64,000 bases of DNA from Acidimicrobiia bacterium. Lineage in GTDB: Bacteria > Actinomycetota > Acidimicrobiia > IMCC26256 > PALSA-555. The notes below the pieces were generated by a model, which worked only from the letters and a program-made list of their open reading frames with translations, did no database searches and was not told the origin of the DNA. This document shows positions 3,944-64,000 of the stretch, piece by piece; position 1 is the first letter of the stretch, and the number at the start of each line of letters is the position of its first letter. The position numbers and the translations under genes are program-made. The stretch spans positions 1-64,000 of the forward strand of contig JBBECS010000036.1 in the NCBI GenBank assembly GCA_040881685.1. The letters run 5' to 3'.

Positions 3944-5124
3944 GCGAGAAGCACCGCTTGCTCGACGCAGGCGCCATCGTGGGCATCGGCGCGACGGAGT
4001 TCTCCAAAGAGTCGGGTCGCTCCGACCTCAAGCTGGCGATCGAAGCGTGCGAAGCCGCGATCGCCGACGCGGGCCTGAAGCCCAGCCAGGTGGACGGCAT
4101 GGTCACGTTCACCCAGGACACCAACCCGGAGATCGAGATCGCCAAGAGTCTGGGCGTAGGCGAACTCAGCTTCTTCTCGCGTATCCATCACGGCGGCGGC
4201 GCAGCGTGCGGCACGATCCAGCAGGCGGTGCTCGCGGTGAACGCAGGTGTCGCCGACTACGTCGTCTGCTACCGCGCGTTCAACGAGCGTTCCGGGCACC
4301 GGTTCGGGACTGGCGTACAGGACCGCCAGCCCGCGGCCACCGCCGACACCGCGCACTTCTCCTGGTACTCGCCGCACGGTTTGCTCACACCGGCACAGTG
4401 GGTTGCGATGTTCGCTGCCCGCTATTTGCACGAGTATGGGGCGACCAGCGAAGACTTCGGTCGCATCGCGGTAGCCGACCGTAAGCATGCGGCCAAGAAC
4501 CCGAAAGCGTGGTTCTACGAGAAGCCGATCACCCTCGAGGACCACCAGGAGAGCCGGTGGATCGTCGAGCCGTTGCATCTCTTGGACTGCTGCCAAGAGA
4601 GCGACGGGGGCCAGGCACTCGTGGTGACGACACCCGAGCGCGCGCGCGATCTCAAGGGCGTTCCCGCGATCGTGCGTTCCGCGGCGCAGGGCGCGGGCGA
4701 GAACCAGGACATGATGACGAGCTACTACCGCCCGTCGATCACCGGGCTTCCCGAGATGGGGCTCATCGCCCGGCAGCTGTGGAACACGACTGGCCTCGGG
4801 CCCGACGACATGCAGGCCGCGATCATCTACGACCACTTCACCCCGCTCGCGCTCCCGCAGCTCGAGGAGTTCGGGTTCTGCGGCCGCGGCGAGGCGAAGG
4901 ACTTCATCGCCGACGGCAACATCGAGCTCGGCGGCCGTCTCCCGATCAACACCAACGGCGGTCAGCTCGGTGAGGCGTATATCCACGGGATGAATGGCAT
5001 CGCCGAGGGTGTGCGCCTCATCCGCGGAGACTCGTACAACCAGCCGCCAAACGTCGAGCATGTACTGGTCACCGCGGGAACGATGGTGCCGACGAGCGCA
5101 CTGGTCTTCGGCAAGGCGGCGTAG
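3940..5124 (+). CDS. ltp2: Ltp2-like steroid side-chain aldolase (SCP2-thiolase fold)
   Basis: A 394-aa member of the SCP-x/thiolase superfamily. It closes the igr-like operon, where Ltp2 performs a retro-aldol cleavage of the 17-hydroxy C22-CoA ester to androstenedione and propionyl-CoA, together with the DUF35 domain of ChsH2. The nucleophilic Cys of true thiolases is not conserved: GGGAACGTIQQA has Ala at the aligned position by my reading. The C-terminal loop is NTNGGQLGEAYIHGMNG rather than the GHPxGATG of thiolases. Both features fit an aldolase. The start overlaps the stop of mini-ORF 3 (ATGA). Two further paralogues lie at 13572-14753 and 34845-36053, each with its own DUF35 partner. 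Confidence 0.82.
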   Translation: MSEKHRLLDAGAIVGIGATEFSKESGRSDLKLAIEACEAAIADAGLKPSQVDGMVTFTQDTNPEIEIAKSLGVGELSFFSRIHHGGGAACGTIQQAVLAVNAGVADYVVCYRAFNERSGHRFGTGVQDRQPAATADTAHFSWYSPHGLLTPAQWVAMFAARYLHEYGATSEDFGRIAVADRKHAAKNPKAWFYEKPITLEDHQESRWIVEPLHLLDCCQESDGGQALVVTTPERARDLKGVPAIVRSAAQGAGENQDMMTSYYRPSITGLPEMGLIARQLWNTTGLGPDDMQAAIIYDHFTPLALPQLEEFGFCGRGEAKDFIADGNIELGGRLPINTNGGQLGEAYIHGMNGIAEGVRLIRGDSYNQPPNVEHVLVTAGTMVPTSALVFGKAA

Positions 5125-9352: not shown

Positions 9353-9994
9353 TCAGGTGCTCGTGTCGTCGATGGTGAACGAGAGCTGCTTGGTCGCCTC
9401 CGGCCCGTTCGGTCCCTTGGCCGTGACCTTGAAGGTGTGCGTCTGGTCCGAACAGTCGTAGTTGAACGACTGCGACCCATTTCCTCCCCCATAGCTCTGG
9501 TAGAGGCCGGGCCCGTCCACGGCGAGATCGACAGAAGACGTGTTCTGCGTCTGCCAGGACACGGTGAAGTTGATGCCAGGGATCGATGTCGACACATCCG
9601 GCGCGGGCGATGTGCACGTGTACGGGGAGTTCTTGTTGCCACTGAAGGTGATTGAGGGGTCGTCGCTGGGTTGACCACCACCACCACTACCACCACCACC
9701 CGGTGTGGTGGCCCCGAGCGTCGTGGACGTCGAGCTGCTGGTCGACGTGGACGAGCTGGTCGATGTGCTGTCGGCCTCCTTCTTGTCGTCGCCGCCACCA
9801 CTGGCGACCGCGATCCCGGCGCCGACGATCACGCCGACGAACAAGAGGGCGAGCGGGATGAGCCACCACTTGCGGCCCTCACCCGAGTCGTCGGGACCAT
9901 TCCCACCGCTGTCCCCGGTGGGCGGACCACCGCCGGCCATGGTCTGATCGCTCCCGCCGCCGGCCATGGTCTCATCTGTCCCGCTCATCTCCAC
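9353..9994 (-). CDS. Single-pass membrane protein with exported Ig-like domain
   Basis: A 213-aa protein. Its Gly-rich cytoplasmic N-terminus has a near-repeat (ETMAGGG, then QTMAGGG), followed by a charged stop (GEGRKWW), a transmembrane helix (LIPLALLFVGVIVGAGIAVA, about residues 44-63), a Ser/Thr-rich linker (STSTSSSTSTSSSTSTT) with poly-Gly, and a beta-rich exported domain with two Cys (SPYTCTSP and FNYDCSDQ). The exported domain resembles Ig-like surface domains of actinobacteria. No function is assigned. It stands alone between convergent and same-strand neighbours. Confidence 0.7.
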   Translation of the reverse strand: MEMSGTDETMAGGGSDQTMAGGGPPTGDSGGNGPDDSGEGRKWWLIPLALLFVGVIVGAGIAVASGGGDDKKEADSTSTSSSTSTSSSTSTTLGATTPGGGGSGGGGQPSDDPSITFSGNKNSPYTCTSPAPDVSTSIPGINFTVSWQTQNTSSVDLAVDGPGLYQSYGGGNGSQSFNYDCSDQTHTFKVTAKGPNGPEATKQLSFTIDDTST

Positions 9995-10051
9995 CCCTCT
10001 CGACGCGCGGAGGCTACCTTCGCCGGTCCTGACGCACTCGGGACCCTCCGC

Positions 10052-12280
<2,229 letters not shown>

Positions 12281-20127: not shown

Positions 20128-20517
20128 ATGGCAGACGCGAACGAGCAGCTGATCCGGGACGGCTACGACGCCTTCAGCGCCGGCGACATGGAGAAGCTCG
20201 GCTCTCTGTTCAAGCCCGACATCGTGCACAGCGTGCCGGGCAACAACCAGCTGACCGGGGACTACAAGGGTATCGACGAAGTGCTCGGCCTCTACGGGAA
20301 GCTGTTCGAGATCACCGGCGGCAACATGTCGGTCGACCTCAAGAGCGTCACGGTCGACGGTGACAAGGTTGCTGCGGTGCACACGAACAAGGCGGAGCGT
20401 GACGGCAAGACGCTGAACAGCGACACCACGCTGAACTTCACGATCGACGGCGGCAAGATCGCCCGCATCGACGAAGTTCCGTCCGACCAGGCCGCCGAAG
20501 ACGCGTTCTGGGGATAG
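20128..20517 (+). CDS. SnoaL-like/NTF2-fold protein, copy 1
   Basis: A 129-aa alpha+beta cone protein of the SnoaL/NTF2 superfamily: N-terminal helices (NEQLIRDGYDAFSAGDMEKL) followed by the strands LFKPDIVHSVPGNN, GDYKGIDEVLGLYGKLFE, MSVDLKSVTVDGDKVAAVH and TTLNFTIDGGKIARI. Family members are small isomerases, cyclases or binding proteins. It has a strong RBS (GGAGGGA at 20116). It is followed by a close paralogue after 35 bp. Confidence 0.8.
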   Translation: MADANEQLIRDGYDAFSAGDMEKLGSLFKPDIVHSVPGNNQLTGDYKGIDEVLGLYGKLFEITGGNMSVDLKSVTVDGDKVAAVHTNKAERDGKTLNSDTTLNFTIDGGKIARIDEVPSDQAAEDAFWG

Positions 20518-20552: not shown

Positions 20553-20951
20553 ATGGCAAACGCCAACGAGGACCTGGTTCGGGACGGCTACGCAGCCTTC
20601 AGTGCCGGCGACATGGAGAAGCTCGGCTCGCTGTACACGGATGATTTCGTGCACAGCGTTGGTGGCAACAACCAGCTCACAGGCGACTACAAGGGTGTCC
20701 CCGCGGCCATGGGCTTCTACGGCCAGCTTTTCGAGCAGAGTGGCGGGACGTTCTCCGTCGACCTCAAGAGCGTGAAGGCCGACAGCGACAACGGCGTGGT
20801 CTCGGTGCACAGGAGCAAGGCCGAGCGCGACGGCAAGAAGCTTGACGCCGACACGACGCTCAACTTCACGGTCAAGGACGGCAAGATCGCTCGCATCGAC
20901 GAGGCCCCGTCCGACCAGGCCGCCGAGGACGACTTCTGGGGCAAGGCCTAA
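20553..20951 (+). CDS. SnoaL-like/NTF2-fold protein, copy 2
   Basis: A 132-aa paralogue of the preceding gene. The two share segments such as GYAAFSAGDMEKLGSL, NNQLTGDYKG, SVDLKSV and the C-terminal KIARIDEAPSDQAAED. Both leaders contain AAACGGAGGGA just before the start, so the duplication included the translation signals. An extra glycine/asparagine insertion (DSDNGVVS) distinguishes it. A tandem duplication allowing hetero-dimers is plausible; function unknown. Confidence 0.8.
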   Translation: MANANEDLVRDGYAAFSAGDMEKLGSLYTDDFVHSVGGNNQLTGDYKGVPAAMGFYGQLFEQSGGTFSVDLKSVKADSDNGVVSVHRSKAERDGKKLDADTTLNFTVKDGKIARIDEAPSDQAAEDDFWGKA

Positions 20952-20960
20952 CTCAAACCA

Positions 20961-21371
20961 TCACGTCGACGGCGCGCCGACCAATCGGCGCGCCGTCGCG
21001 ATGATGTCCTCGTTCGACGAGCCGGGTGGGAACACGTCAACGCCTCGCTCGGCGAGTCGCTTCGCCGCCCAGGGCGGCACCGTGCCGCCTGCGAACACCG
21101 GTACATCGCCCGCGACCTCGCGCACCCGGTCGAGGACGCGCTCCACTACCTCAACCCGCCCGCCCACGTTGAGGCCCACCAGCTGGACGTCCTCGTCGCG
21201 CGCCGCGGCTGCGATCTGATCGGCCGTGGCCATGCCTACGTTCACCACTTCGAACCCGACGTCGCGGAGGATCCGAGCCACGACCATCACGCCTCGCCAA
21301 TGACCGTCGAGGCTCGTCTTGGCGAGCAGCACCCGAGCCGGACGGCTCGAGCCACCCGGCGCCGCGGTCAC
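20961..21371 (-). CDS. B12-binding subunit of a split acyl-CoA mutase
   Basis: A 136-aa cobalamin-binding domain with the base-off signature SLDGHWRG (DxHxxG, His as lower cobalt ligand), followed by GLNVGGRVEVVERV and GGTVPPWAAKRLAERGVDVFPPG, as in the small subunits of archaeal-type methylmalonyl- and isobutyryl-CoA mutases. The GTG start at 21371 overlaps the large-subunit stop (GTGA), so the subunits are made together. Confidence 0.87.
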   Translation of the reverse strand: MTAAPGGSSRPARVLLAKTSLDGHWRGVMVVARILRDVGFEVVNVGMATADQIAAAARDEDVQLVGLNVGGRVEVVERVLDRVREVAGDVPVFAGGTVPPWAAKRLAERGVDVFPPGSSNEDIIATARRLVGAPST

Positions 21372-23032
21372 AGCTGAACCGGAACCTTCCAGCTCCCGAA
21401 CGCCTCGCGGTACACCGCGCCCACCTCGCCGATGGTCACATCCGCGTCGAGCGCGTCGAGCATCAACGGGATCACGTTGTCGTCGGCTCGACAAGCCGCC
21501 TCGAGCGCACGCAGCGCGTCGCCGGCCGCCGCCTCGTGACGCTCGCGCCGCACGCCGGCGACCCGATCCATCCCTCGGTCCCATGCGTCGGAGCCACCAG
21601 CGAACCCGTCGATCTCCCAGGGCGTCGCGTCGTCGGTGTGGATGTCCACGCCCACGATCGAGCCGGAACGCATGCTCTCTGCTATCTGGTTGTCGGCGGC
21701 GCGCTGGAGTAGCCAGCCATCGTCGATCGACTCGATGAAGCCGCCCCGCGCCTGGACCTCCTCGAAGAACTCCCAGGCGCGCGTCTCCAGCGCCTCGGTG
21801 AGCGACTCCACGAAGTACGACCCACCCAGCGGGTCAGCCACGTCCACCAGCCCGCCGCACTCCTCCTGGAGGATCTGCTGGATGCGGATCGACATCTGGT
21901 GCGCGTGGTCCGAGGGGATGGAGATCGCCTCGTCGTAGCCCGAAACGCCGAGCGACTGCACGCCGCCGAGACCAGCCGCGAGCGCCATCAACGTGCCGCG
22001 AACGAGGTTGTTCAGCGGCTGCTGGTAGGTCATCGCCGACCCCGCGGTCACCACGTGGATGCGCAGCGCAAGTGCCTTCTCATCGGTCACGCCGTACCGC
22101 TGCGAGAGCAGGTCGTGCCACATCTTGCGAGCCGCGCGGAGCTTGGCGATGTCCTCGAAGAACGCCATTGACGTACGGAAGCTCACGCCGCCGATCCCGC
22201 GGGCGAACCCGTCGATGACCAGCCCGCGATCGCGCACCGCGTCGAGGTACTCGACCGCGTTGGCCATCACCGCCCCGAGCTCCTCGTGCGCGACGAGCCC
22301 CGAGTCAGCACCGTTGTAACCCGCGACCGACACCGGTACCCATCGGGGCATGCGCTCGGTGCAGAACTCGATGAGATCGCGGTTGAGGCGCAACCCCTCG
22401 CGTGGCGGGATCTGGTCCTTGGTGAGACAACCCACGTAGGTGAGGAAGAAGTCGCTCTGGCCGGTCCCGGCGAGCTTCGTGAAGTCGACGCCCCGCCGCT
22501 TCGCCGCCACCCAGTACGACCCGAGGCACCACGGTGCGGCCTGCACCACGCCGGCGCCCGGGTGGGCGTACGTCTGCTCGATCGGAAGCCCGTCGATCGC
22601 TACCTGCACGTCGCGCGCGCTCAGGAGGACCGAGCCGGTCTGCCCGACGTCTTCGCGCCGGGCGTCGACCTCGGGATGGTCGGGGTCGTAGAGGTGGTCG
22701 TTCGTGACCCGGTCCCGCTTCATGATGAAACCGGTCTCGCCCTGCTCGAGCAGGAACCGCAACCGTTGGTTCAGTTCTTCAGGGCTGCCGTATCCGCTGA
22801 GCTGAAAGATGCGCCACGGCTTCCCGCGGTACATCTGCAGGTATGCGCCCCGAACGAACGGCGCTTCACCGGGCGGCGCGGCGCGAGCGCCGTGGTCGGC
22901 CGGGAGGTCGTCAGGTCCGTAGACGGGTCGGAGCGGGATCCCCGACGGTGTCGTCGGCTCGTCCGCCTTGCTGGGTCGACTCCGCTGTGCCCTCCCGGCC
23001 GTCCGGCCAGGGCTCCGCTTCGTCTCCGCCAT
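21368..23032 (-). CDS. Divergent B12-dependent acyl-CoA mutase, large subunit
   Basis: A 554-aa methylmalonyl-CoA-mutase-family TIM barrel with the B12 domain on a separate gene. Fold markers are clear: WRIFQLSGYGSPEELNQRLRFLLEQGETG, KLAGTGQSDFFLTY, FFEDIAKLRAARKMW, NNLVRGTLMALAAGLGGVQSLGVSGYDEAISIPSDHAHQ. The active site differs from characterised members: GYHxxEAG, with the catalytic His, is GYNGADSG (Asn240), the FDLPTxxGYDSD strand reads KRDRVTNDHLYDPD, and the RQYAGF Tyr is Leu. The first about 20 residues (TKRSPGRTAGRAQRSRP) come from a palindromic repeat shared with the amidohydrolase at 23915. No MeaB-like chaperone is adjacent. The substrate cannot be assigned. Confidence 0.82.
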   Translation of the reverse strand: MAETKRSPGRTAGRAQRSRPSKADEPTTPSGIPLRPVYGPDDLPADHGARAAPPGEAPFVRGAYLQMYRGKPWRIFQLSGYGSPEELNQRLRFLLEQGETGFIMKRDRVTNDHLYDPDHPEVDARREDVGQTGSVLLSARDVQVAIDGLPIEQTYAHPGAGVVQAAPWCLGSYWVAAKRRGVDFTKLAGTGQSDFFLTYVGCLTKDQIPPREGLRLNRDLIEFCTERMPRWVPVSVAGYNGADSGLVAHEELGAVMANAVEYLDAVRDRGLVIDGFARGIGGVSFRTSMAFFEDIAKLRAARKMWHDLLSQRYGVTDEKALALRIHVVTAGSAMTYQQPLNNLVRGTLMALAAGLGGVQSLGVSGYDEAISIPSDHAHQMSIRIQQILQEECGGLVDVADPLGGSYFVESLTEALETRAWEFFEEVQARGGFIESIDDGWLLQRAADNQIAESMRSGSIVGVDIHTDDATPWEIDGFAGGSDAWDRGMDRVAGVRRERHEAAAGDALRALEAACRADDNVIPLMLDALDADVTIGEVGAVYREAFGSWKVPVQL

Positions 23033-23822
23033 CGCGTCCCTTTCCGTCCCCCTGGACACCGTCGCGCCCCTCGAAGCGGGGGGAGCGCTTCTCCACGAAG
23101 GCCCGTGCGCCCTCGATCATGTCGTACGAGCCGATCGCCTGCGTGAGCAGCGCCATCCCGTGCATGTACGCGTCGCGGTGCTGGTTCCAGAGCGTGTTGG
23201 ACGACACCTTGGTGATCTCGAGGTACCGGGGGCTCAACGCCAGCAGCTCCTCGGCCCACTTCAGGACCTCGGCCTCAAGCTGGTCATCGGGCACCACCGC
23301 GTTGATGAGACCAAGGTCCTTGGCTTCGTGGGCGCTGTATCGCCGGCACAGGAACGCGATCTCCTTCGCACGCTTCTCACCCACGGAGTGCGTGAGGAAG
23401 TTGGCACCGCCGAAGACGGGGGAGCTGCCGACGCGGGGCCCGGTCTGACCGAACGTGGCGCTCTCGGCTGCGATCGCGAGGTCGCAGGAGACCACGAGCT
23501 CGTTGCCACCGCCCGCGGCGACGCCGTTGACGGCCGCGATCACCGGGCGCGGGCTCGAGCGGATGGCCTCGAACAGCTCGAGCGAGCAGCGGAAGAGCTT
23601 GCGGAGCTCATCGGGTTCGGGGTCGGCCAGCTCGGCGAGGTAGCCACCGGCGCAGAATCCTCGACCCGAGCCGGTGATCACGATCACACCGGCATCGGTC
23701 GACGCGTCGACCAGTCGGCGCAGCTCGTCGCCCATCATCCGGTCGTACGCATTGAGACGCTCGGGGTGATCGAGCACCAACCAGGCGACCTCGCCCCGCC
23801 GCTCGGCCCGGACGTCGGCCAT
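22911..23822 (-). CDS. MenB-like enoyl-CoA hydratase/ring hydrolase family protein
   Basis: A 303-aa crotonase-fold protein closest by eye to the DHNA-CoA synthase / 2-ketocyclohexanecarboxyl-CoA hydrolase branch: NELVVSCDLAIAAESATFGQTGPRVGS, then GEKRAKEIAFLCRRYSAHEAKDLGLINAVVP and a C-terminal AFVEKRSPRFEGR. The family normally ends there. Here the frame runs on about 45 residues through a palindromic repeat and overlaps the mutase gene by 122 bp. The start ATG is 18 bp from a 20-bp palindrome. Operon order (hydratase, mutase, B12 subunit) suggests the three act on one CoA ester. Confidence 0.8.
   Translation of the reverse strand: MADVRAERRGEVAWLVLDHPERLNAYDRMMGDELRRLVDASTDAGVIVITGSGRGFCAGGYLAELADPEPDELRKLFRCSLELFEAIRSSPRPVIAAVNGVAAGGGNELVVSCDLAIAAESATFGQTGPRVGSSPVFGGANFLTHSVGEKRAKEIAFLCRRYSAHEAKDLGLINAVVPDDQLEAEVLKWAEELLALSPRYLEITKVSSNTLWNQHRDAYMHGMALLTQAIGSYDMIEGARAFVEKRSPRFEGRDGVQGDGKGRDGGDEAEPWPDGREGTAESTQQGGRADDTVGDPAPTRLRT
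22973..23026 (-). repeat. Type-2 palindromic repeat, copy A
   Basis: 54 bp beginning GAGACGAAGCGGAG on the minus strand, containing the imperfect palindrome CCTGGCCGGACGGCCGGGAGG and ending GTCGACCC. It is 50/54 identical by hand count to copy B (23924-23977). It is read in two frames here: as the N-terminus of the mutase and as the C-terminal tail of the overlapping hydratase. Confidence 0.8.
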
Positions 23823-23839: not shown

Positions 23840-23859
23840 CGTCAACACTGGCGTTGACG
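23840..23859. promoter_or_regulatory. Palindromic operator, site 1 of 4
   Basis: CGTCAAC, six bases, GTTGACG: perfect 7-bp arms. It lies in the 92-bp divergent region between the hydratase-mutase operon (start 23822) and the amidohydrolase (start 23915). The same 20-bp pattern occurs at 37418, 62446 and 63847. It probably binds a dimeric TetR/GntR-type repressor. Confidence 0.7.
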
Positions 23860-23914: not shown

Positions 23915-25072
23915 ATGGCGAAGGAGACGAAGCGGAGTCCTGGCCGGACGGCCGGGAGGCCGGAGCGGAGTCGACCCGTGCAGAAGGAACGGATCATCTC
24001 AGCCGACTCGCATGTGACGATCCGTGACGCCGCGGTCCTCGAGCACCTTCCCGCGAAGCACCACGACGCGTACCGCGCCGGCAAGCTCGCTGCACTGCGC
24101 AAGTTCGTCGGTGATGAGGCCGAGAAGATGATCGAGTCCGACCAGCTCGGGCTCGACGACGACGAAGAGCAGCACCGCTGGGAGTCGGCCGGCCGCCCCG
24201 GCGCGTTCGACCCGCACGCACGCCTCGTCGATATGGACACCGACCAGGTCGACGCCGAGATCCTGTACACGGATTCGTGGGCGGGTGCCGCGTTCTACGA
24301 GATGCCCAATGGTGGTTGGCTCGCCGGCTTCCAAGCGTTCAACTCGGCGGCCATCGACTTCGCCTCGGTCGATCCCGAGCGCCTGCTTCCCGTGTACATC
24401 ATCCCGATCGCCGACATCGACGAGGCGGTGAAGGAGGTGCAGCGTGTCGCCAACGAGGGTGCCCGCGCCGCGCACCTGCCGCTGTACCCGATGGACCTCG
24501 GGTTTCCCGGCTATTGGGACGAGACCTACGACCCGCTGTGGTCGGTGCTTTCCGAGGTGGGCATGCCGGTGAGCCAGCACGTGGCGAGCAACGCGTACCT
24601 CGCCACGTTGCGCGCCGCCGACCCCACGCCGATGCGGGGCGTGATGCACGCGCTGCCCAACATCTTCATGGCCGAGTCGATCGGTTTCTGGATCGTCGCC
24701 GGCATCCTCGAGCGGTTCCCGAGGCTCAAGGTTGTGATGGTCGAGGCCGGCCTCGGTTGGCTCCCGTACTGGCTGGCGCGCCTTGACCGCATGATGACCA
24801 AGCACGGCTGGGACCACTTCGACATGTTGAAGGAGAAGCCGAGCGTCTACTGGCACCGCCAGATGGCCGCCACGTTCGAGGAGGACGAGCTCGGCATGGA
24901 GCTCCGCGAGCTCATCGGCGTCGAGAACATGATGTGGGCGACCGACTACCCGCACCCCGACAGCACCTGGCCGCACTCGCAGGACGTCATCCACACGCAC
25001 TTCGACGGCCTGCCACTCGACGAGACCCGCCTCATGATCGGCGGCAACGCCGCCCGCCTCTACAACCTCTAG
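23915..25072 (+). CDS. Amidohydrolase-2 family protein with repeat-derived N-terminus
   Basis: A 385-aa metal-dependent hydrolase/decarboxylase-like TIM barrel (ACMSD/amidohydrolase-2 type). Metal-site regions are IISADSHVT (about residues 26-34), a central His (MPVSQHVASN) and a late Asp (MWATDYPHPDSTWPHS). Related proteins in this window start within a few residues of SADSHV; this one carries about 22 extra residues (KETKRSPGRTAGRPERSRP) supplied by repeat copy B. An RBS-like GGGGGA precedes the ATG. It is divergent from the hydratase-mutase operon and shares the operator at 23840. Confidence 0.83.
   Translation: MAKETKRSPGRTAGRPERSRPVQKERIISADSHVTIRDAAVLEHLPAKHHDAYRAGKLAALRKFVGDEAEKMIESDQLGLDDDEEQHRWESAGRPGAFDPHARLVDMDTDQVDAEILYTDSWAGAAFYEMPNGGWLAGFQAFNSAAIDFASVDPERLLPVYIIPIADIDEAVKEVQRVANEGARAAHLPLYPMDLGFPGYWDETYDPLWSVLSEVGMPVSQHVASNAYLATLRAADPTPMRGVMHALPNIFMAESIGFWIVAGILERFPRLKVVMVEAGLGWLPYWLARLDRMMTKHGWDHFDMLKEKPSVYWHRQMAATFEEDELGMELRELIGVENMMWATDYPHPDSTWPHSQDVIHTHFDGLPLDETRLMIGGNAARLYNL
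23924..23977 (+). repeat. Type-2 palindromic repeat, copy B
   Basis: 54 bp, 50/54 identical to copy A by hand alignment, starting three codons after the ATG of the amidohydrolase and read in the same frame as in the mutase (TKRSPGRTAGR then RSRP). Copies A and B lie about 900 bp apart on opposite strands. Confidence 0.8.
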
Positions 25073-26031: not shown

Positions 26032-26093
26032 GGCGGACAACCTATTTCCCACTCTCGGCCCTTCGGGTCGGGCCGTTCGGGCCACGGCTGGCT

Positions 26094-26116
26094 GCGCCGC
26101 AGGGTACCTGCGGCGC
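26094..26116. repeat. GC-rich hairpin, type-1-like
   Basis: Perfect 10-bp inverted repeat GCGCCGCAGG / CCTGCGGCGC around GTA. It has the size and GGGTA core of the type-1 repeats but lacks the CAGCGAGCG tail. It lies between divergent genes, upstream of the acyl-CoA dehydrogenase at 26169. Confidence 0.6.
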
Positions 26117-26168
26117 CGACGCCCGCCTCTGGCTCGTGCACCGTCAAGCCGAGCTGAGGCACGCAGAG

Positions 26169-31527: not shown

Positions 31528-32727
31528 TCAGACGACGCCGGACTCCCTGAGCTTCTCAAGATCCTCAGCGGTGACGCCAAGCAGGCCGCAGTAGATCTCT
31601 TCGTTGTGCGCGCCGATGTCGGGCCCGGTCCAACGCACGGAGCCCGGCGATGCAGACAGGCGCGGTACCGCGTTCGGCATCTTGACCGGGCCGAGATACG
31701 GGTCGTCGACGGTGATGATCGCGTCGCGGTCCTTGTAGGCGGGGGAGTCGACAATGTCGGCGGCGTCGTGGGCCATGGCGATCACTGCGCCGGCCTCCTC
31801 GAACGCGTCGAGCACTTCCTGTGCCGAGCGTGCCGCGATCCACTCGCCGACCGCGTCGAGTAGGGCTTGCATGTTCTCGGGCACGTTGCGCGACACGGGT
31901 GTGGCGAACCGTGGATCATCGGCGAGCTGCCCGCCGCCCACGAGCAACAGCATCCGACGGATGACGGTCTCGGCTGCCGCTGACATCGAGAGCCATTTGC
32001 CGTCGGCCGACTGGTAGACGTTGCCAACCATCAAGCCGAGCGGGAAGCGGTTCCCGGCGCGCTCGGTGACGACGCCGAGCTGGTCGTACGTGGGGATGTG
32101 CCACTCGATCATGCGGAACAGCGTCTCGAACAAGGCCAGGTCGACGATCTGCCCGGTGCCCGTGCGTTCGCGGTCGTGGAGCGCGGCCAGCACGCCGTAT
32201 GCACCCATCAGCGCCGTAGACGTGTCGCCGAGCGAGAAGCCGATGTGATTCGGCGGTCCCTGGGGAAAGCCAGACAGGTGCAGCGCACCACTCAATGCCT
32301 CGGATGGGCGTCCGAACATCGGCTTGGGGTTCGACGCGGCGCTCTGCTGCCCGTAGCCGCTGATGCGGAGCATGATCAGGCGCGGGTTCTCGGCGTGCAG
32401 CCGCTCCCACCCGATGTTCCAGCGCTCCATCGTTCCTGGACGGAAGTTCTCGACGAGCACGTCGGCGTCGCGCGCCAGGCGCATCAACAGCTCCTGACCC
32501 TCTGGCGTGCGCAAGTCGAGAGTGATGCAGCGCTTGTTCCGGCCGGCCACCGTCCACCACAGAGGGCGGTCGTCCTTCCGCGGTCCGAGCCGGCGCAGCC
32601 CGTCGCCCTCCGGCGGCTCGATCTTGATCACGTCGGCGCCCAGGTCGCCGAGGAGCGTGGCGGCGAACGGCCCGGCGAGCACGTGACCCACGTCGATGAC
32701 GCGCAGGTCGTCGAGCGCCTCGCTCAT
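31528..32727 (-). CDS. CaiB/BaiF family CoA-transferase
   Basis: A 399-aa class III CoA-transferase: LRVIDVGHVLAGPFAATLLGDLGADVIKIEPPEGDGLR at the N-terminus, NKRCITLDLRTPEGQELLMRLARDADVLVENFRPG, and QIVDLALFETLFRM with the catalytic Asp. It moves CoA between acyl groups, usually activating a carboxylate with succinyl-CoA or similar. It is the last gene of the six-gene minus-strand operon, and its ATG overlaps the CitE-like stop (ATGA). Confidence 0.87.
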   Translation of the reverse strand: MSEALDDLRVIDVGHVLAGPFAATLLGDLGADVIKIEPPEGDGLRRLGPRKDDRPLWWTVAGRNKRCITLDLRTPEGQELLMRLARDADVLVENFRPGTMERWNIGWERLHAENPRLIMLRISGYGQQSAASNPKPMFGRPSEALSGALHLSGFPQGPPNHIGFSLGDTSTALMGAYGVLAALHDRERTGTGQIVDLALFETLFRMIEWHIPTYDQLGVVTERAGNRFPLGLMVGNVYQSADGKWLSMSAAAETVIRRMLLLVGGGQLADDPRFATPVSRNVPENMQALLDAVGEWIAARSAQEVLDAFEEAGAVIAMAHDAADIVDSPAYKDRDAIITVDDPYLGPVKMPNAVPRLSASPGSVRWTGPDIGAHNEEIYCGLLGVTAEDLEKLRESGVV

Positions 32728-33683
32728 GTGTCCTCCTGCATTGCCTCGCTCGCTGCGGTCGGGGATACCCCGCCCGCGGGCGCTCGCTCGGTCGGCGCGG
32801 AGTGCGCGTGGCGAGTCAGGAGGTCGCGGGCGACGCGCACCATCGCCGCGTCGACCATCTGGCCCTCGTGATCGAGGGCGCCCATGCCGTCCCGCGCCGC
32901 GCCGTCCCACGCCTCGAGGAGACGCTTGGCTGCCGCCACATCGTCGGGCGTTGCGCCGAACACTTCGTTGACGATCTCAACGTGTGATGGGTGGATGACC
33001 ATCATCCCTTCGTAGCCGATGGCTCGTGATTGCCGGGCGAACGCCTCGACCTCGTCGAGCTCTCGAAGGTTGGTCACGACGCCGGTCATCGGGTTGGGGA
33101 CACCAGCCGCCCGCATGTCGACGAGGATCTCCGAACGCAGGTACAGCGTCTCCAGGAACAGCGGTGGCGTCCAGCCGAAGCCGAGCGCATGGGCCAAGTC
33201 ACCGTTCAGCGCCGCGGCTCCACCCATGTACGCCACCCGGGGAGACGACGACGCCAGGTCGAAGGCGCGGCGAGCGGCCGCCGCATTCTCCACGCTTGGC
33301 CACACGCGCACCGAGCCGCTGGGGAGTCCGGCCCGACGTTCGCGCTTGTCGAGACCTTTGGCCACGCGCTGCACCTCGGCGGGCTCGGTCACTTTGGGCA
33401 CCATCACGGCGACGAGACCCTGCTGCACGATGGCGTCGAGATCGGCATCGAGGCAGCTCTCGGAGAGCGCGTTGATGCGGACGCAGACGGCGGGCGCTGC
33501 ATCACCGGCACCGAGCCACTCCGCCACGACGGCGCGGGCGTCACCACGCTCGGTCGCGGGCACGGAGTCCTCGAGGTCGAGGATGACCGCGTCTGCGCCC
33601 GATGCAACCGCTCGCTCGCGGAAGTCGCGTCGATGTCCGGGGACGAACAGCGCGGAGCGGATCCGCGGTGGCGCCGCGCTCAT
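32724..33683 (-). CDS. HpcH/HpaI-CitE-like C-C lyase with repeat-derived tail
   Basis: A 319-aa TIM-barrel lyase of the citrate-lyase-beta/malyl-CoA lyase family: RSALFVPGHRRDFRERAVASGADAVILDLEDSVP (Asp and metal-binding Glu region), VWPSVENAAAARRAF, YMGGAAALNGDLAHALG and GMMVIHPSHVEIVNEVF. It cleaves or forms a beta-hydroxy- or beta-methylmalyl-type CoA. The last about 20 residues (TERAPAGGVSPTAASEAMQ) are encoded by a type-1 palindromic repeat and are not family sequence. The start overlaps the amidohydrolase stop and the stop overlaps the CaiB start (both ATGA). Confidence 0.85.
   Translation of the reverse strand: MSAAPPRIRSALFVPGHRRDFRERAVASGADAVILDLEDSVPATERGDARAVVAEWLGAGDAAPAVCVRINALSESCLDADLDAIVQQGLVAVMVPKVTEPAEVQRVAKGLDKRERRAGLPSGSVRVWPSVENAAAARRAFDLASSSPRVAYMGGAAALNGDLAHALGFGWTPPLFLETLYLRSEILVDMRAAGVPNPMTGVVTNLRELDEVEAFARQSRAIGYEGMMVIHPSHVEIVNEVFGATPDDVAAAKRLLEAWDGAARDGMGALDHEGQMVDAAMVRVARDLLTRHAHSAPTERAPAGGVSPTAASEAMQEDT
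32755..32777 (-). repeat. Type-1 palindromic repeat, copy 3
   Basis: On the minus strand GCGGGCGGGG, TAT, CCCCGACCGC (9 of 10 pairs), followed by AGCGAGCGAGGC. It lies in frame inside the 3' end of the CitE-like gene, in the third reading frame relative to copies 1 and 2. Confidence 0.7.
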
Positions 33684-34783
33684 CGCGACTCGCCGAGGCG
33701 ATACAGGTGGCGGGCGTTCCCGGCCAGGATCAGGTCGCGCTCGTCCTCGGGCACACCCGAGAAGTCGGCGTTGATCGTGCGCCAGGAGTTCGGCCAGTCC
33801 GCGCCCACGTGCGGGTAGTCGCTCGACCACATCATCCGGTCGGGCCCGATGTCGGCCCGGTTGCGCACCGCGAAATGATCCGTGATGTACGTGTACGAGA
33901 AGTTGCGGTCCATGTACTCACTCGGCGGCATCGTGAGCTTGAGGCCCGAGCCTCGGCCCAGCCGGTGGTAGCGGTCGTCGATCTGCTCCTTGAAGTACGG
34001 GATCCAGCCGCAATCCACTTCCGCGAGTACCACTTGGAGCTCGGGGAAGCGGTCGAGCACGCCGGAGAAGATGAGCTGGAGGATGCGCTGCGGCACGTCG
34101 TAAAAGCGCACGTCGCCCGGCAGCTTCGTCTTGTGTGACGTGGGCATGCCGGCCACGAGCGTGACGTGGATGGACAGCGGGACGCCGGCGTCGACCGCAA
34201 GGCTCCACAGCGCGTCGTCTTCGGGCTCGATGTCGAGTCCCCCATGCGGGTATCGGCTGAGGAGCCCCCCGACGATCCCGGGGTTGACGACGGCCCGTTC
34301 GAGCTCGCCGACGGCGTCGGCCACGCCGCTGTTCGGGATCATCGCGAGCCCGCATAGGCGGTTGGGCGCGTGACCGCAGTACTCGGCGAGCCAGTCGTTG
34401 TACGCGCGCACCATCGCGAGGTGGTACTCGGCGTCTTCGTTGGCGGCAATGGCCCACGAGAGACGGGGGGTGGGGTAAAGGATCTCGGCGTCGACGAAGT
34501 CACGGTCCTGCTCCGCGAGTCGCCCGGCCGGGTTGTGCGCGCCCTCCCGCACGTCCTCCCACTTGATCCATGGCCGCATCGCGTCGGGATCCATGCCAGC
34601 TGAGGCGTTGAGCCCGAAGTTGATCGGATCCTCGACCCCTTCGATGACCCACGCGTCGCCCTCGGCGAACCGCTCCATGCGCGGCGCTCGGTCGCGCAAC
34701 TTCGCCGGTACCCGTGAGGTGTAGAGGTCGGGTGGCTCGAGCACGTGGCTGTCAGCCGAGATGAGCCGGTACTGGTGCTCCAT
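33680..34783 (-). CDS. Amidohydrolase-2 family protein
   Basis: A 367-aa ACMSD-like metal-dependent hydrolase or decarboxylase. The N-terminus is LISADSHVLEPPDLYTSRVP, a central His lies in GVPLSIHVTLVAG, and a late Asp in MMWSSDYPHVGADWPNSW. It is closely related in layout to the protein at 23915 but has no N-terminal extension: its ATG overlaps the stop of a mini-ORF made from the same type-2 repeat (TGATG). It belongs to an operon of SDR, DUF35, aldolase, amidohydrolase, lyase and CoA-transferase. Confidence 0.85.
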   Translation of the reverse strand: MEHQYRLISADSHVLEPPDLYTSRVPAKLRDRAPRMERFAEGDAWVIEGVEDPINFGLNASAGMDPDAMRPWIKWEDVREGAHNPAGRLAEQDRDFVDAEILYPTPRLSWAIAANEDAEYHLAMVRAYNDWLAEYCGHAPNRLCGLAMIPNSGVADAVGELERAVVNPGIVGGLLSRYPHGGLDIEPEDDALWSLAVDAGVPLSIHVTLVAGMPTSHKTKLPGDVRFYDVPQRILQLIFSGVLDRFPELQVVLAEVDCGWIPYFKEQIDDRYHRLGRGSGLKLTMPPSEYMDRNFSYTYITDHFAVRNRADIGPDRMMWSSDYPHVGADWPNSWRTINADFSGVPEDERDLILAGNARHLYRLGESR

Positions 34784-34845
34784 CAGTTCGGGTCGATTCC
34801 GTTACGGCGTCCCGGCCTCCGGCCACGCCTCCACTGCATCTCCAT
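34783..34845 (-). CDS. Bridging mini-ORF 4 (20 codons) between aldolase and amidohydrolase
   Basis: The frame MEMQWRRGRRPGRRNGIDPN starts by TGATG overlap with the aldolase stop and ends by TGATG overlap with the amidohydrolase start, so it fits the gap to the base at both ends. It consists almost entirely of type-2 repeat copy C. Very basic; not recognised. Confidence 0.45.
   Translation of the reverse strand: MEMQWRRGRRPGRRNGIDPN
34790..34842 (-). repeat. Type-2 palindromic repeat, copy C
   Basis: 53 bp on the minus strand, GAGATGCAGTGGAGG through GGAATCGACCC, aligning to copies A and B with about nine substitutions and a one-base deletion (hand alignment). The deletion changes the frame relative to A and B, and the frame closes exactly at the downstream start. 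Confidence 0.65.
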
Positions 34846-36053
34846 CAGGGCGTGCCTCTCGTGAGCAGCATGCACCCGGCCACCGGCCCGCCACCGTTGG
34901 CGACCACGGCAGTCTGCGGCGCGTCGAGCTGGCGATCACCGCTGTCACCGCGGAGCTGGAGGCAGGCCTCGTGCAGAAGGCCGAAGCCGTGGAGTCGGCC
35001 GGCCGAGAGCTGACCGCCGCAGGTGTTCAGCGGGACATCACCGTCGCGTGCGATGCGCTTGCCACCTTCGACGAACTCGCCGCCGGTGCCTGGTTCGCAG
35101 AAGCCGAGCGCCTCGAGCCAGGCCAGCGCCAGAAAGCTGAAGCCGTCGTAGAGCTGGGCGAGGTCGACGTCCGCCGTCGTCAGGTCGGAGCGAGACCACA
35201 GGTGCGCGGCCGCGTCGCGCGCCGCCATCGTGGTGAGGTCATCGAACTGGTCCCACGACGGGCGACCGCGCATCGCAGTGCCCACGGCGTGCACGTGAGC
35301 CGCCGGGCGGCGCGCGTCGGGCGCCGCATCGACGTGCGAGACGACGACTGCCGTTGCACCGTCGACCGGCAGGTCGCAGTCGAACAAGCACAGCGGCGTA
35401 CTGATCATGCGAGCGCCGAGGTACTCGTCCAGCGAGAGCGGCTCGCGGAACACTGCCCTTGGGTTGTCTGCCGCGTTGGCTCGGTCGGTCAGTGCGATCT
35501 GCGCAAGCTGCTCGCGGGTGGTGCCGTACCGGTCGAAGTGAGCCTGGGTGTAGAGCGCGAGCAGGTTGGCGCTCGAACCAGCACCGAACGGGATCGACCA
35601 TTGCCGGTACCCGTCGACTCGCGCGTTGCCGAGACCAGCCGCATGCGCTACCTCGGCGCGAGACCCCGAGCCCTGCTGACTCGACTCGGTGACCGTCCTC
35701 CAGACGACGACGTGGCGCGCCAGCCCGGATGCGATCGCTAGGCACGCGGCGACCACGGCGCCCAACGGCGCCGGACCCTCGGCGCCGCCGTGGCTCCATC
35801 CCAGCTCGAGGCGGAGCGCATCTTGCACATCGCGCACGCCGGCGCTCGCGTACCGGCCCGCGTCACGAGCATTGAGGGCGCCGCCGGGGAACGTGGCCAG
35901 ACCGTCGATGTCGGCGCGGGCGAGGCCGGCGTCCTCGATCGCGGCGAGCACCGCTTCGAGCGTGAGGTCGAGGTTCGTCCGCTCGAGGTTCCGGCCAATC
36001 GCGGACTGGCCCAGACCCGTGATTGCCGAACGCCGCTCGAGGATCTCAGTCAT
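34845..36053 (-). CDS. Ltp2-like acyl-CoA aldolase/thiolase-fold protein 3
   Basis: A 402-aa SCP-x/thiolase superfamily protein. The nucleophile region reads SHGGAEGPAPLGAVVAACLAIASG without the CxxG Cys, and the C-terminal loop is PLNTCGGQLSAGRLHGFGLLHE, as in the two other Ltp2-like proteins of this window. Its DUF35 partner is encoded just upstream (36202-36612) with a coupled mini-ORF between. By analogy it performs a retro-aldol or related C-C cleavage on a CoA ester. Confidence 0.8.
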   Translation of the reverse strand: MTEILERRSAITGLGQSAIGRNLERTNLDLTLEAVLAAIEDAGLARADIDGLATFPGGALNARDAGRYASAGVRDVQDALRLELGWSHGGAEGPAPLGAVVAACLAIASGLARHVVVWRTVTESSQQGSGSRAEVAHAAGLGNARVDGYRQWSIPFGAGSSANLLALYTQAHFDRYGTTREQLAQIALTDRANAADNPRAVFREPLSLDEYLGARMISTPLCLFDCDLPVDGATAVVVSHVDAAPDARRPAAHVHAVGTAMRGRPSWDQFDDLTTMAARDAAAHLWSRSDLTTADVDLAQLYDGFSFLALAWLEALGFCEPGTGGEFVEGGKRIARDGDVPLNTCGGQLSAGRLHGFGLLHEACLQLRGDSGDRQLDAPQTAVVANGGGPVAGCMLLTRGTP

Positions 36054-36205
36054 CGCTTCCGCTCTCGGCGCTTCGCGCCTCCATGGATCGTCGTCGCAAG
36101 CGACGACTCGGTGCTCCGGCGGTCGGCGGAGCCGCCGCCTGCGCGGGGCCGCTCCGGCCCCGCTCGCTGCGGGCCGGGGTACCCGACCCGCGGACGCGCG
36201 CTCAT
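36050..36205 (-). CDS. Bridging mini-ORF 5 (51 codons) between DUF35 and aldolase genes
   Basis: The ATG overlaps the DUF35 stop and the TGA overlaps the aldolase ATG (ATGA at both ends). The N-terminal part, with the core GYPGPQRAGPERP, matches mini-ORF 3 at 3854-3943, encoded by the same two-hairpin repeat in the same frame and position. The C-terminal half (SADRRSTESSLATTIHGGAK and RRERKR) is different and also ends in an Arg-rich run, as mini-ORF 3 does. No family is recognised. Confidence 0.5.
   Translation of the reverse strand: MSARPRVGYPGPQRAGPERPRAGGGSADRRSTESSLATTIHGGAKRRERKR
36143..36191 (-). repeat. Type-1 palindromic repeat, copy 4 (double hairpin)
   Basis: Two adjacent inverted repeats: GCGGGGCCG / CGGCCCCGC around CTC (36143-36163) and a 10-bp arm pair with one mismatch around the TAC core (36169-36191). 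Read on the minus strand from 36205, ATGAGCG...GGGTACCCCGG..CCGCAGCGAGCGGGGCC matches 3854-3907 in order and spacing. Confidence 0.75.
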
Positions 36206-36612
36206 GTGGCCGGCTCGAAGAGTGGGAACCACACGTCGTCCACTTGCTCGAAGCAGACCTGGACAGCCATGCCGCCGGCGACCGCGCCCGCCTCGACGTT
36301 CACGAGGTTCGTGGTCAGCCGGAGCCCCGGCTGCTCGACGAGCTCGACGATCGCGATCACGTACGGCGGGTCCATCAAGCCCCAGTCCTGATGGTTCACC
36401 GTGAAAGTCGCGACCGTGCCGCGGCCGGTCACTGGTTCTGGTGCGACGGAGCGCGATGCGCACTGCGGACACACCGGCGCCGGCGGGTGCACGTACGAGT
36501 AGCAGTCGCCACAACGCAGGAAGCGCAACCGCCCGTCGACACCGGATGTCCAGAAGAACTCGGTCTCGGGCGTGAGCGCGGGGAGCGGGCGCGTCGGTGC
36601 GTCGGTGCTCAT
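36202..36612 (-). CDS. DUF35 zinc-ribbon/OB-fold protein, aldolase partner 3
   Basis: A 136-aa DUF35 protein with zinc ribbon CGDCYSYVHPPAPVCPQCAS (about residues 34-53) and OB fold (GRGTVATFTVNH, GLRLTTNLVNV). It is the probable partner of the aldolase at 34845-36053. It starts inside the SDR stop (ATGA, 36609-36612), and its own stop overlaps mini-ORF 5. Confidence 0.86.
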   Translation of the reverse strand: MSTDAPTRPLPALTPETEFFWTSGVDGRLRFLRCGDCYSYVHPPAPVCPQCASRSVAPEPVTGRGTVATFTVNHQDWGLMDPPYVIAIVELVEQPGLRLTTNLVNVEAGAVAGGMAVQVCFEQVDDVWFPLFEPAT

Positions 36613-37391
36613 GCTGGCATGCAGAGGCCGGCATCGACGCAGAGCACCTGGCCGGTGATCATCGACGCGTCGTCACTGGCAAAGAACACCGCCGCGCCGG
36701 TGAGGTCTTCGGGCTCCAAGGTGCGGTGCAACGCCGCCTTGCGCCGTAGCTCTTCGATGCGCGCCGGCTCGAGGTCGGCCTTCATCGCGTCGGTGAGTAC
36801 GGGGCCGGGGGAAATGCAGTTCACGGTGATCCCGTACTGGCCGAGCTGCACCGCGAGGAACTTCGTGAGCCCGACGATGCCCCACTTCGTCTGGTTGTAC
36901 CCGAAGGAGTTGAGACCTTCATACACGGGTGCTTCGAACCGGTCGGGCGCGTAGATGTACGCCGCGTCCGACGCCTGCATGATCACGCGGCCGCGGGCTT
37001 GCTCGACCATCGGGACCGCGGCGGCGCGCGTCATGAGCCACGCGCCGTGCAGGTTCACGTCGAACACCTTCTTCAGGTAGGCGAGGCTGTGGTCGGTCTT
37101 GTCGAGATCGCCGAAGAGGGCCGCGTTGTTGAGCAGCACGTCCACGGTGCCGAAGCGCTCGACGCTCTGGCGCACGCACGCCGCCGCCGACTCCTCGTCG
37201 GCCACGTCGGTGGGCACGAAGATGGCTTCGCCACGGCTCGAGAGCTCCTCGAGGGTCGCCTCACCGTCCTCCTTGTTGAGGTCGGCGATCACCACGTGAG
37301 CGCCCTCGTCGAGGAGCCGGGTCGCGTAGGCCTTGCCGATGCCACGCCCCGCGCCGGTGACGATGGCGACCTTGCCCTGCAGCCGCACCAA
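36609..37391 (-). CDS. Short-chain dehydrogenase/reductase
   Basis: A 260-aa SDR and first gene of the operon: RLQGKVAIVTGAGRGIGKAYA, Asp after beta-2 (IADLNKEDG, NAD-preferring), LNNAALFG, QASDAAYIYAP with a Ser/Asp active-site loop, and FGYNQTKWGIVGL (YxxxK). The C-terminus is GQVLCVDAGLCMPA. It likely oxidises a hydroxyacyl intermediate before cleavage by the aldolase. The ATG is 26 bp from palindromic operator site 2. Confidence 0.84.
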   Translation of the reverse strand: MVRLQGKVAIVTGAGRGIGKAYATRLLDEGAHVVIADLNKEDGEATLEELSSRGEAIFVPTDVADEESAAACVRQSVERFGTVDVLLNNAALFGDLDKTDHSLAYLKKVFDVNLHGAWLMTRAAAVPMVEQARGRVIMQASDAAYIYAPDRFEAPVYEGLNSFGYNQTKWGIVGLTKFLAVQLGQYGITVNCISPGPVLTDAMKADLEPARIEELRRKAALHRTLEPEDLTGAAVFFASDDASMITGQVLCVDAGLCMPA

Positions 37392-37417: not shown

Positions 37418-37437
37418 CGTCAACACCCGCGTTGACG
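37418..37437. promoter_or_regulatory. Palindromic operator, site 2 of 4
   Basis: CGTCAAC, six bases, GTTGACG: same arms as site 1 (23840). It is the only notable element between the VOC gene stop (37450) and the SDR start (37391), hence in the promoter of the six-gene operon. Confidence 0.7.
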
Positions 37438-62445: not shown

Positions 62446-62465
62446 CATCAACGTTCGCGTTGACG
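62446..62465. promoter_or_regulatory. Palindromic operator, site 3 of 4
   Basis: CATCAAC, six bases, GTTGACG. Arms match sites 1 and 2 except one A for G. It lies directly upstream of the amidohydrolase pair, in the 181-bp divergent region shared with the DUF222-HNH gene. Confidence 0.65.
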
Positions 62466-62593: not shown

Positions 62594-64000
62594 GTGTCCA
62601 CGAGAGTCCGCCAGGCGATCGAGCTGCTCCTCGCCGAGCTGGCCGACGTCGACCCCTCCTGTGTCGACGGATCTCGCGCCCGAGAGCTCATGGAGGACTT
62701 CGCAGAGGTCCAGCACCTCGGGGGTGCCGGGGTCACGATCATGGCGCGACGGGTGGAAGCGGCGGGCGCGTTCGATCTAGCCAAGCACCGCAGCGCGGCG
62801 CATTACCTTGCCAAGGTCACCGGCACGACGGTCTTTGCTGCCGAGCAGCAGATCCGCACCGCGCGTCAGCTCGAAGACCTGCCGGCCACCCACGCTGCAT
62901 TGCGCGCTGGCCGGCTCTCGGGTGTGCAGGTCAAGGAGGTCGCCGCCGCGGCCGCCGCGGATCCGTCGGCGGAGCCGATGATGCTCCGATGTGCGCAGAT
63001 CGACGGAATCAAGGGCCTCAAGGCCGAGGGTGCCCGCGTGATCGCGGCCGCGGCCCGCGATGCCGACAAGCAGTACGAGCGGATTCATCGCGAGCGGACG
63101 TTCCGGCACTGGAGCGACTATCACGGCTCCGGCCGCATCGATGTGCGCGGCCCACTCGACCTCACCACCCGCGTCGCGCTGGCCCTCGTGCCGTATGAGC
63201 ACGAGCTGTTCGAGGCCGCCCGCAAGAACGACGAGCGCGAGCGCGCCGACGCGCTGATGTTTGACGCGCTGGTGGCCATGGCCGACGCGTCAACCGGAGA
63301 GATGCCCAAGGGCACGGGGCCGATGCCGACCATCGCGGTCCGGATCGACCACCGAGCGTTCGTGACCGGTGACACATTGCCCGGCGAGGTGTGTGAGATC
63401 GCCGGCGTCGGCCCGATCCCGGTGAGCGTGGCGCAGCGCCTCGCGGAAGACGCGTTCCTCAAAGCGCTCGTCACCAATGGTGTCGACGTGCTCGCGGTCT
63501 CGCATCTCGGCCGCACGATCCCCGCACACCTGCGTACCGCGCTCGAGGAGCTCTACCCCGAGTGTGCGATCGCCGGCTGCAACGCCAGCTACGGCCTCGA
63601 GATCGACCACAACCAACCGGTCGAGGTAGGCGGACTGACCGAGCGCCGCAACCTCAACAAGCTCTGTCGCTACCACCACACGTACAAGCACCGCCACAAG
63701 CTGCGCCTGGTCGGCGAAGGCACCAACAAGAGGTTCTTGTCCGCCGCCGAGTGGCTGCCGCCCGATCGACCACCCGACTGCCCAGGTGGCCGACAACCAC
63801 AGGGGCAGCCGCCCCGGGCGCCGGGCTCTCGTGGCCGCATGATGCTCATCAACGCGAACGTTGATGCTTGGGTCATGCCGCCCGTAGGCTGCCACGGCCG
63901 TCCGCCCAGGGGAGCCATGGTCAAGCAGCAGCGCGCCACCGAAGCCGATGCGCCGGTCGCGGCCGACTCTCCGGCGACCTGTGCAACGAACGGTGCGATC
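62594..64000 (+). CDS. DUF222/HNH endonuclease family protein (runs off the window)
   Basis: The frame from GTG 62594 (RBS GAGGAGGG at 62581) has no stop before the window end, 469 codons. It begins TRVRQAIELLLAELADVD, has the DUF222 helical region (FDLAKHRSAAHYLAKVTGTTVFAAEQQIRTARQLEDL) and a C-terminal HNH motif: CAIAGCNASYGLEIDHNQPVEVGG, then NLNKLCRYHHTYKHRH (zinc Cys, HNH His/Asn/His). DUF222-HNH proteins are common multi-copy actinobacterial genes. Homology appears to end near codon 400 (about 63790), after which the frame runs through operator site 4 and a new RBS/ATG at 63917. Confidence 0.84.
   Translation, partial: MSTRVRQAIELLLAELADVDPSCVDGSRARELMEDFAEVQHLGGAGVTIMARRVEAAGAFDLAKHRSAAHYLAKVTGTTVFAAEQQIRTARQLEDLPATHAALRAGRLSGVQVKEVAAAAAADPSAEPMMLRCAQIDGIKGLKAEGARVIAAAARDADKQYERIHRERTFRHWSDYHGSGRIDVRGPLDLTTRVALALVPYEHELFEAARKNDERERADALMFDALVAMADASTGEMPKGTGPMPTIAVRIDHRAFVTGDTLPGEVCEIAGVGPIPVSVAQRLAEDAFLKALVTNGVDVLAVSHLGRTIPAHLRTALEELYPECAIAGCNASYGLEIDHNQPVEVGGLTERRNLNKLCRYHHTYKHRHKLRLVGEGTNKRFLSAAEWLPPDRPPDCPGGRQPQGQPPRAPGSRGRMMLINANVDAWVMPPVGCHGRPPRGAMVKQQRATEADAPVAADSPATCATNGAI
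63847..63866. promoter_or_regulatory. Palindromic operator, site 4 of 4
   Basis: CATCAAC, six bases, GTTGATG: perfect arms, same spacing as sites 1-3. It lies inside the open end of the HNH frame and 50 bp before a candidate start at 63917 with a good RBS. It probably belongs to the gene beginning there. Confidence 0.55.
63917..64000 (+). CDS. Candidate start of the next gene (partial, cut by window end)
   Basis: ATG 63917 follows AGGGGAG at 63908-63914 and begins MVKQQRATEADAPVAADS. It is in the same frame as the DUF222-HNH ORF, so it could be read either as a new gene or as the tail of the HNH protein. The RBS and the operator site 50 bp upstream favour a new gene, perhaps a regulator or an enzyme of the same regulon. 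Too little is visible to name it. Confidence 0.4.
   Translation, partial: MVKQQRATEADAPVAADSPATCATNGAI

Follow-up and report, generated by a model that had tools for sequence, protein, structure and literature searches.

An Acidimicrobiia operon that combines a predicted dinuclear oxygenase with an atypical Ltp-type aldolase

Two well-described pairs of proteins provide the nearest points of comparison for the aldolase considered here, namely Ltp2-ChsH2, encoded by the igr operon and acting on the sterol side chain, and Sal-Shy, which functions in bile acid degradation. Both combine a thiolase fold lacking the nucleophilic Cys with a DUF35 partner, and both carry a base Tyr in a YDxF motif. 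One study gives Tyr294 as the base and Tyr344 as the acid of Ltp2, and Tyr302 and Cys304 as the equivalent residues of Sal (PMC12329534). In this work we describe a six-gene operon from the draft genome of an Acidimicrobiia bacterium (3.11 Mb, 54 contigs), in which a gene for an aldolase of this type is followed by one for a predicted oxygenase and by genes for a CitE-like lyase and a CaiB CoA-transferase. The operon lies in a stretch of 64,000 nt, henceforth the window.

The relatives of the predicted oxygenase include PtmU3, whose hydroxyl reportedly prepares A-ring cleavage in platensimycin biosynthesis, and DitZ, which by its name would belong to the dit cluster for diterpene resin acids; the DitZ structure was the sole dit sequence compared. 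Such proteins have been defined as amidohydrolase-related dinuclear oxygenases (AROs) (PMC10811679). A further report describes PtmU3 as a β-hydroxylase taking coenzyme A (CoA)-ligated substrates, and lists Asp25, His27, His211, Glu265, Asp337 and His340 as the two-metal ligands of AibH2 (PMC7782822). The third comparison is with the CitE-like lyases (1sgj, CLYBL, RipC/Ccl) that occur with family III CoA-transferases.

An original prediction from the DNA letters had placed six genes at 31528-37391, and open reading frames (ORFs) and Pfam searches recovered all of them in the proposed order, encoded by the minus strand. In the direction of transcription, their families are SDR, DUF35, thiolase-fold, Amidohydro_2, HpcH/HpaI (CitE) and CoA_transf_3. 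The accompanying view, that the genes run in one direction and form a CoA-dependent unit in which two of the enzymes cleave C-C bonds, is supported. The operon is real, if partly misread, and its points of interest are the oxygenase and the atypical aldolase. It is a novel combination of known enzyme kinds, with no new kind among them.

The predicted oxygenase and its aldolase neighbor

The PF04909 protein had been taken for a decarboxylase/hydrolase-type amidohydrolase, a label that is not supported, as sequence, fold and a full dinuclear ligand set all indicate an oxygenase. Its best solved relatives by sequence are PtmU3 (6e-40) and DitZ (6e-27), which rank above 5-carboxyvanillate decarboxylase and ACMSD. 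When its AlphaFold model (pLDDT 93.2) was used in a Foldseek search, DitZ and PtmU3 again came out on top (7e-26), with SfbO as the next entry (9e-19); VIA-align superpositions on this pair gave Z 40.3 (rmsd 2.9, 351 aligned) and Z 36.9 (rmsd 2.9, 341 aligned), as against about 30 for ACMSD. All six ligands of the AibH2 site are present as D11, H13, H206, E255, D322 and H325, in alignment with PtmU3, and none of them varies among seven close orthologues (query counted). They also recur in 81 of 81 sequences (the query and 80 homologues), a count in which only H206 and E255 are unbiased, because the homologues were picked by patterns holding the first two or the last two ligand sites. By these features the protein would fall among the PF04909 AROs, with a TIM-barrel amidohydrolase-2 fold nearest to PtmU3, DitZ, AibH2 and SfbO, and from alignment and model it looks like an O2-using dinuclear metal hydroxylase. 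It shares the fold and the metal ligands of PtmU3 and DitZ at an identity of 22-31%, and unlike them is encoded in a catabolic operon together with an Ltp-type aldolase, CitE and CaiB.

The closest solved protein to the thiolase-fold product is Ltp2 of the Ltp2-ChsH2 complex (6ok1, 4e-50). Its nucleophile loop is devoid of Cys, so that it does not qualify as an SCP2-type thiolase, and since it attains 276.9 bits with the Ltp2 model PRK07855, below the cut-off of 469, we do not file it as Ltp2 either. At the active site, the base is retained as Tyr302 (Tyr294 in Ltp2), whereas the position of the second Ltp2 tyrosine is occupied by Arg353; of the Sal pair, the Tyr is kept and position 304 is Gly. 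Arg353 is common to 6/6 aligned homologues at 57-64% identity, and Tyr is kept in those paralogues of the genome that belong to other Ltp types, among them an Ltp2 at 3940-5124 of the window. On the strength of these residues and scores the protein is called an Ltp-type aldolase of a subfamily other than Ltp2, the Tyr/Arg type. A further difference from Ltp2-ChsH2 and Sal-Shy is that the DUF35 protein of the operon has no MaoC hydratase domain.

Matches to the aldolase were found in 57 of the 61 genomes searched (its own and 60 relatives), many at more than 50% identity. Its nearest relatives adjoin two DUF35 genes and acyl-CoA dehydrogenases, and the Ltp/DUF35 pair of the operon was therefore probably copied from a locus of that kind. 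One such set, at 9683-12149 of locus L061, comprises a Tyr/Arg-type aldolase, two separate DUF35 genes and a PimC/PimD-like acyl-CoA dehydrogenase pair, and similar sets occur in several relatives.

The surroundings of the operon may point to the class of its substrate. About 26 kb away, at 10-5124, lies an igr-like set of acyl-CoA dehydrogenase, MaoC+DUF35, a further acyl-CoA dehydrogenase and Ltp2, the last of these being a strong match (672 bits, cut-off 469); a separate ChsH1 was not recognised in this set. The igr-type arrangement, an acyl-CoA dehydrogenase pair and a MaoC hydratase beside the aldolase, is thus found here and is absent from 31528-37391. The nearest plasmid homologue of the oxygenase (50%) is from Novosphingobium sp. 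EMRT-2, in a cluster that also holds CoA-transferase A/B, nitronate monooxygenase, several acyl-CoA dehydrogenases, an Ltp-like protein and an OB-fold protein. We regard this cluster as resembling steroid C/D-ring genes; NCBIfam naming yielded no match there. Given the igr-like set and the plasmid cluster, the operon probably serves to degrade a bulky carboxylic acid of isoprenoid (steroid- or terpenoid-derived) origin. The genome at large has an unusually catabolic gene set, with 37 PF04909, 21 Ltp-type-query and 25 CaiB-query matches in its 3.11 Mb.

Proposed pathway and competing explanations

The following sequence of events may be envisaged: 1) The PF04909 protein, as an O2-dependent dinuclear hydroxylase, would act on a CoA thioester in the manner of PtmU3 and place a hydroxyl at the β carbon. 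2) The DUF35/Ltp-type pair would carry out a retro-aldol reaction on the β-hydroxyacyl-CoA, giving a ketone or aldehyde and a short acyl-CoA. 3) The carbonyl or alcohol so formed would be oxidised or reduced by the SDR. 4) CaiB would transfer CoA to a (di)carboxylate that has been set free, and the resulting ester would be split by the CitE-like lyase into acetyl- or propionyl-CoA and an oxo-acid. Two further enzymes, one a BadI/MenB-like hydrolase or hydratase and the other like 2-hydroxyisobutyryl-CoA mutase, may be supplied from a second promoter that carries the same operator. The hydroxylation and retro-aldol steps follow from families of known chemistry. Gene content and order, family placement, active-site residues, selection and the shared operator are observations; the two activities, the sequence of steps, the substrate class and co-regulation are inferred. 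Direct hydroxylation is attractive because the operon has neither the dehydrogenase nor the MaoC hydratase that come before Ltp2 in systems of the igr type. As a whole, we regard this oxygenase-aldolase catabolic scheme as evenly poised between right and wrong.

A bolder proposal, which we consider less likely than not, is that of an oxygenative alternative to β-oxidation, in which the dinuclear oxygenase makes the β-hydroxyacyl-CoA without a dehydrogenase and hydratase, for use by a DUF35-bound aldolase that would represent a third catalytic type (Tyr + Arg). Were this so, C-C bonds could be cut where the carbon does not allow desaturation, for example at ring fusions or quaternary centres in steroids and terpenoids, and the fragment could then be recycled via CaiB, CitE and a B12 mutase. 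There is also a wider implication, as PF04909 proteins are usually annotated as amidohydrolases: if many of them oxygenate CoA thioesters next to DUF35/Ltp aldolases, the breakdown of steroids and terpenoids would include numerous hidden steps of O2-dependent C-C cleavage that could now be named and tested.

Comparison with a sister species (G003) yielded dN/dS values of 0.114 for CaiB, 0.135 for CitE, 0.070 for the oxygenase and 0.072 for the aldolase (175 codons only), indicating that all four are under purifying selection; DUF35 and SDR were left out because the contig of the sister species ends inside the aldolase gene. A close SDR orthologue was not found in the G003 assembly (64% complete), where the best match stood at 55%. 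The same four genes are syntenic there, together with the flanking SnoaL-mutase-ECH-oxygenase-luciferase-ACAD-APH-P450 genes. Among the 61 genomes, a CitE orthologue above 50% identity occurs only in the sister species; a search of 395 genomes from the class put the next match at 48%.

Wider neighborhoods were counted at 80 GTDB loci with oxygenase homologues, listed from at least 370 relatives, related genomes not being independent. Within 5 kb of the homologue on either strand, an Ltp-like gene is found at 14 of the 80, CaiB at 27 and CitE at one, that of the sister species. On the same strand, the interval up to 5 kb compared with that from 5 to 10 kb (660 vs 511 kb) holds 15 vs 4 CaiB, 7 vs 1 DUF35, 7 vs 3 Ltp and 36 vs 9 SDR genes. 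Partial versions of the operon include P450-Ltp-DUF35-oxygenase-DLH-epimerase-CMD-CaiB in L117, neighboring Ltp-DUF35-oxygenase genes in L151, and oxygenase-CaiB-SDR in 8 Acidimicrobiia-type loci (L108-L113, L115, L116). Some regions were picked by hand, partly for matches lying close, and adjacency in L062 and L090-L094 therefore contributes no count. The full combination is seen in this genus only, and partial versions recur elsewhere. Neighborhood conservation with a characterised pathway, which the original prediction had named as grounds for abandoning it, was not encountered: CitE stands beside the oxygenase only in the sister species among the 80 listed loci, and in one other class-level locus. 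The open-licence literature, subscription journals not being covered, furnished no published account joining such an oxygenase with DUF35 or Ltp2.

Several observations weigh against the proposed scheme: 1) Arg353 stands in place of the general acid Tyr344 of Ltp2 and Gly304 in place of Cys304 of Sal, so the aldolase needs another acid or performs other chemistry. 2) No Rieske gene, a common though non-defining companion of AROs, was matched among the part of the window genes scanned with Pfam. 3) The association with CitE is nearly confined to this genus among the matches listed. 4) In the genome itself a PF04909 gene lies within 1.5 kb of 4/21 Ltp-like genes (expected 1.2, P 0.027), and this is not significant at 3 or 5 kb, so that support for a general Ltp-oxygenase adjacency is weak. 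5) The operator in its loose form (2 mismatches) occurs 61 times genome-wide, as against 10 for a reversed control, for which reason only its perfect form is informative.

The foremost competing explanation concerns the last two genes. Their products have clear family features: the CitE-like protein (PF03328) retains the metal ligands E132 and D162, and CaiB belongs to family III (PF02515), its Asp168 aligning with the catalytic Asp169 of formyl-CoA transferase (FRC). The PxYD motif had suggested a CaiB that has lost its catalytic Asp; this idea was dropped, as the FRC alignment puts that residue in LGDTST, where it is conserved. The pair resembles the CitE-like lyases and family III CoA-transferases in fold family, metal ligands and adjacency, but differs in falling far under every specific model (citE 131 of 443 bits, RipC 110 of 375, mesaconate CoA-transferase 224 of 700). 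One might suppose two half-pathways that are merely co-transcribed, with SDR-DUF35-Ltp-oxygenase and CitE-CaiB handling different substrates, that of the latter being an ordinary C5 dicarboxylate (citramalate- or itaconate-like). The lack of linkage between CitE and the oxygenase homologues in 79/80 of the listed GTDB loci would fit this supposition, as would a CitE-CaiB pair without an intervening oxygenase in L232. It is nevertheless unlikely in view of the start/stop overlaps at the oxygenase-CitE and CitE-CaiB junctions, the finding that the four genes open to comparison are syntenic in the sister species, and an independent CitE-oxygenase pair in L231, which is a complete chromosome from another family and has two CaiB genes next to that pair.

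We consider it quite improbable that the PF04909 protein has a mononuclear metal site and acts as an ordinary hydrolase, hydratase or decarboxylase (ACMSD-like), with the β-hydroxyl required by the aldolase coming from an acyl-CoA dehydrogenase and hydratase encoded elsewhere. Its Pfam family is indeed Amidohydro_2, ACMSD chains score high by fold as well, and acyl-CoA dehydrogenases are plentiful in the window; but Glu255 and His325 suit a dinuclear site, the mononuclear 5-carboxyvanillate decarboxylase having His and Tyr at these positions of the alignment, and the two oxygenases rank first by both sequence and fold. An ACMSD-type decarboxylase was accordingly rejected as the best label. Lastly, a DUF35/thiolase-fold pair acting as decarboxylase or acyltransferase (PhlABC-/BbsAB-like) in a unit for biosynthesis or Claisen chemistry would suit the NCBIfam naming of its relatives as thiolase or acetyltransferase and the distant PDB relatives BbsB and PhlC, yet is very improbable with a Cys-less loop, Ltp2 as best match and a catabolic neighborhood.

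Junctions, operator and repeats

The features discussed are collected in Table 1. The genes had been described as tightly joined throughout by overlaps or bridging mini-ORFs. This is accurate for three of the five junctions, with 4-bp overlaps; in transcription order the distances are -4, +148, +61, -4 and -4 bp, the stop of CitE being at 32724. What fills the 148-bp gap is one copy of a palindromic repeat that is dispersed in the genome, and the mini-ORF read in it was accordingly discarded as a gene. Other copies lie at 2278-2318, 3858-3928, 26070-26126 and 32743-32787 in the window, with more on other contigs; the copy at 32743-32787 is translated as the tail of CitE.

Table 1. Features of the operon and of the second operator-bearing promoter
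Feature	Position	Strand	Evidence or remark
SDR dehydrogenase, first in the operon; start codon TTG	36609..37391	-	Pfam adh_short_C2 3e-56; Ser141/Tyr165, YxxxK present
DUF35, ChsH2-type zinc ribbon + OB fold, without MaoC domain	36202..36612	-	PF01796 1.7e-15, PF12172 1.3e-7; Cys 34, 37, 48, 51
Dispersed palindromic repeat, non-gene	36054..36201		Repeat comparison
Ltp-type retro-aldolase (predicted), thiolase fold	34845..36053	-	Ltp2 6ok1 4e-50; PRK07855 276.9 bits
PF04909 dinuclear oxygenase (predicted), PtmU3/DitZ-like	33680..34783	-	Sequence, fold, six ligands
CitE-like CoA-ester lyase	32724..33683	-	PF03328 1.6e-31; 1sgj 1.6e-36
Repeat copy within CitE 3' end	32743..32787		Encodes CitE C-terminal tail
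CaiB, family III CoA-transferase	31528..32727	-	PF02515 2.3e-111
Palindromic operator (putative), CGTCAACACCCGCGTTGACG = CGTCAAC-N6-GTTGACG	37418..37437		26 bp upstream of SDR start
Second perfect operator copy	23840..23859		17 bp upstream of ECH start
BadI/MenB-like enoyl-CoA hydratase-family gene (ECH) under second operator	22911..23822	-	TIGR03210 badI 7.5e-57, 192.5 bits, cut-off 467.6
Acyl-CoA mutase large subunit, nearest 2-hydroxyisobutyryl-CoA mutase; start uncertain	21368..23059	-	4r3u 2.3e-87; PF01642 4.8e-135
Second oxygenase-like PF04909 protein, divergent from ECH; ORF open from 23915	23978..25072	+	DitZ 1.1e-37, PtmU3 1.4e-31

A single operator had also been claimed. The palindrome upstream of the SDR gene is there, but it is shared rather than private, because its perfect 14-base form occurs exactly once more in the 3.11 Mb of the genome, where it accompanies another promoter of this catabolic region; the two promoters may be co-regulated. 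With up to 2 mismatches the window holds 7 sites vs 0.57 in shuffles. At the second site both arms are identical in the sister species, yet the flanks are conserved as well. Scans for promoters and terminators gave no signal above chance in the window, and neither RNA families nor tRNA were found in it.

Around the second promoter, a 55-nt inverted repeat (22973-23027 and 23923-23977, 93% complementary) flanks ECH and appears to form N-terminal codons of the mutase and of the second oxygenase ORF. Tandem duplicate SnoaL-like genes (20128-20517 and 20553-20951) have a DNA identity of 78-84%. Near-identical palindromes (CATCAACG..CGTTGAYG) at 62446-62465 and 63847-63866, near PF04909 genes at the end of the window, possibly represent another operator.

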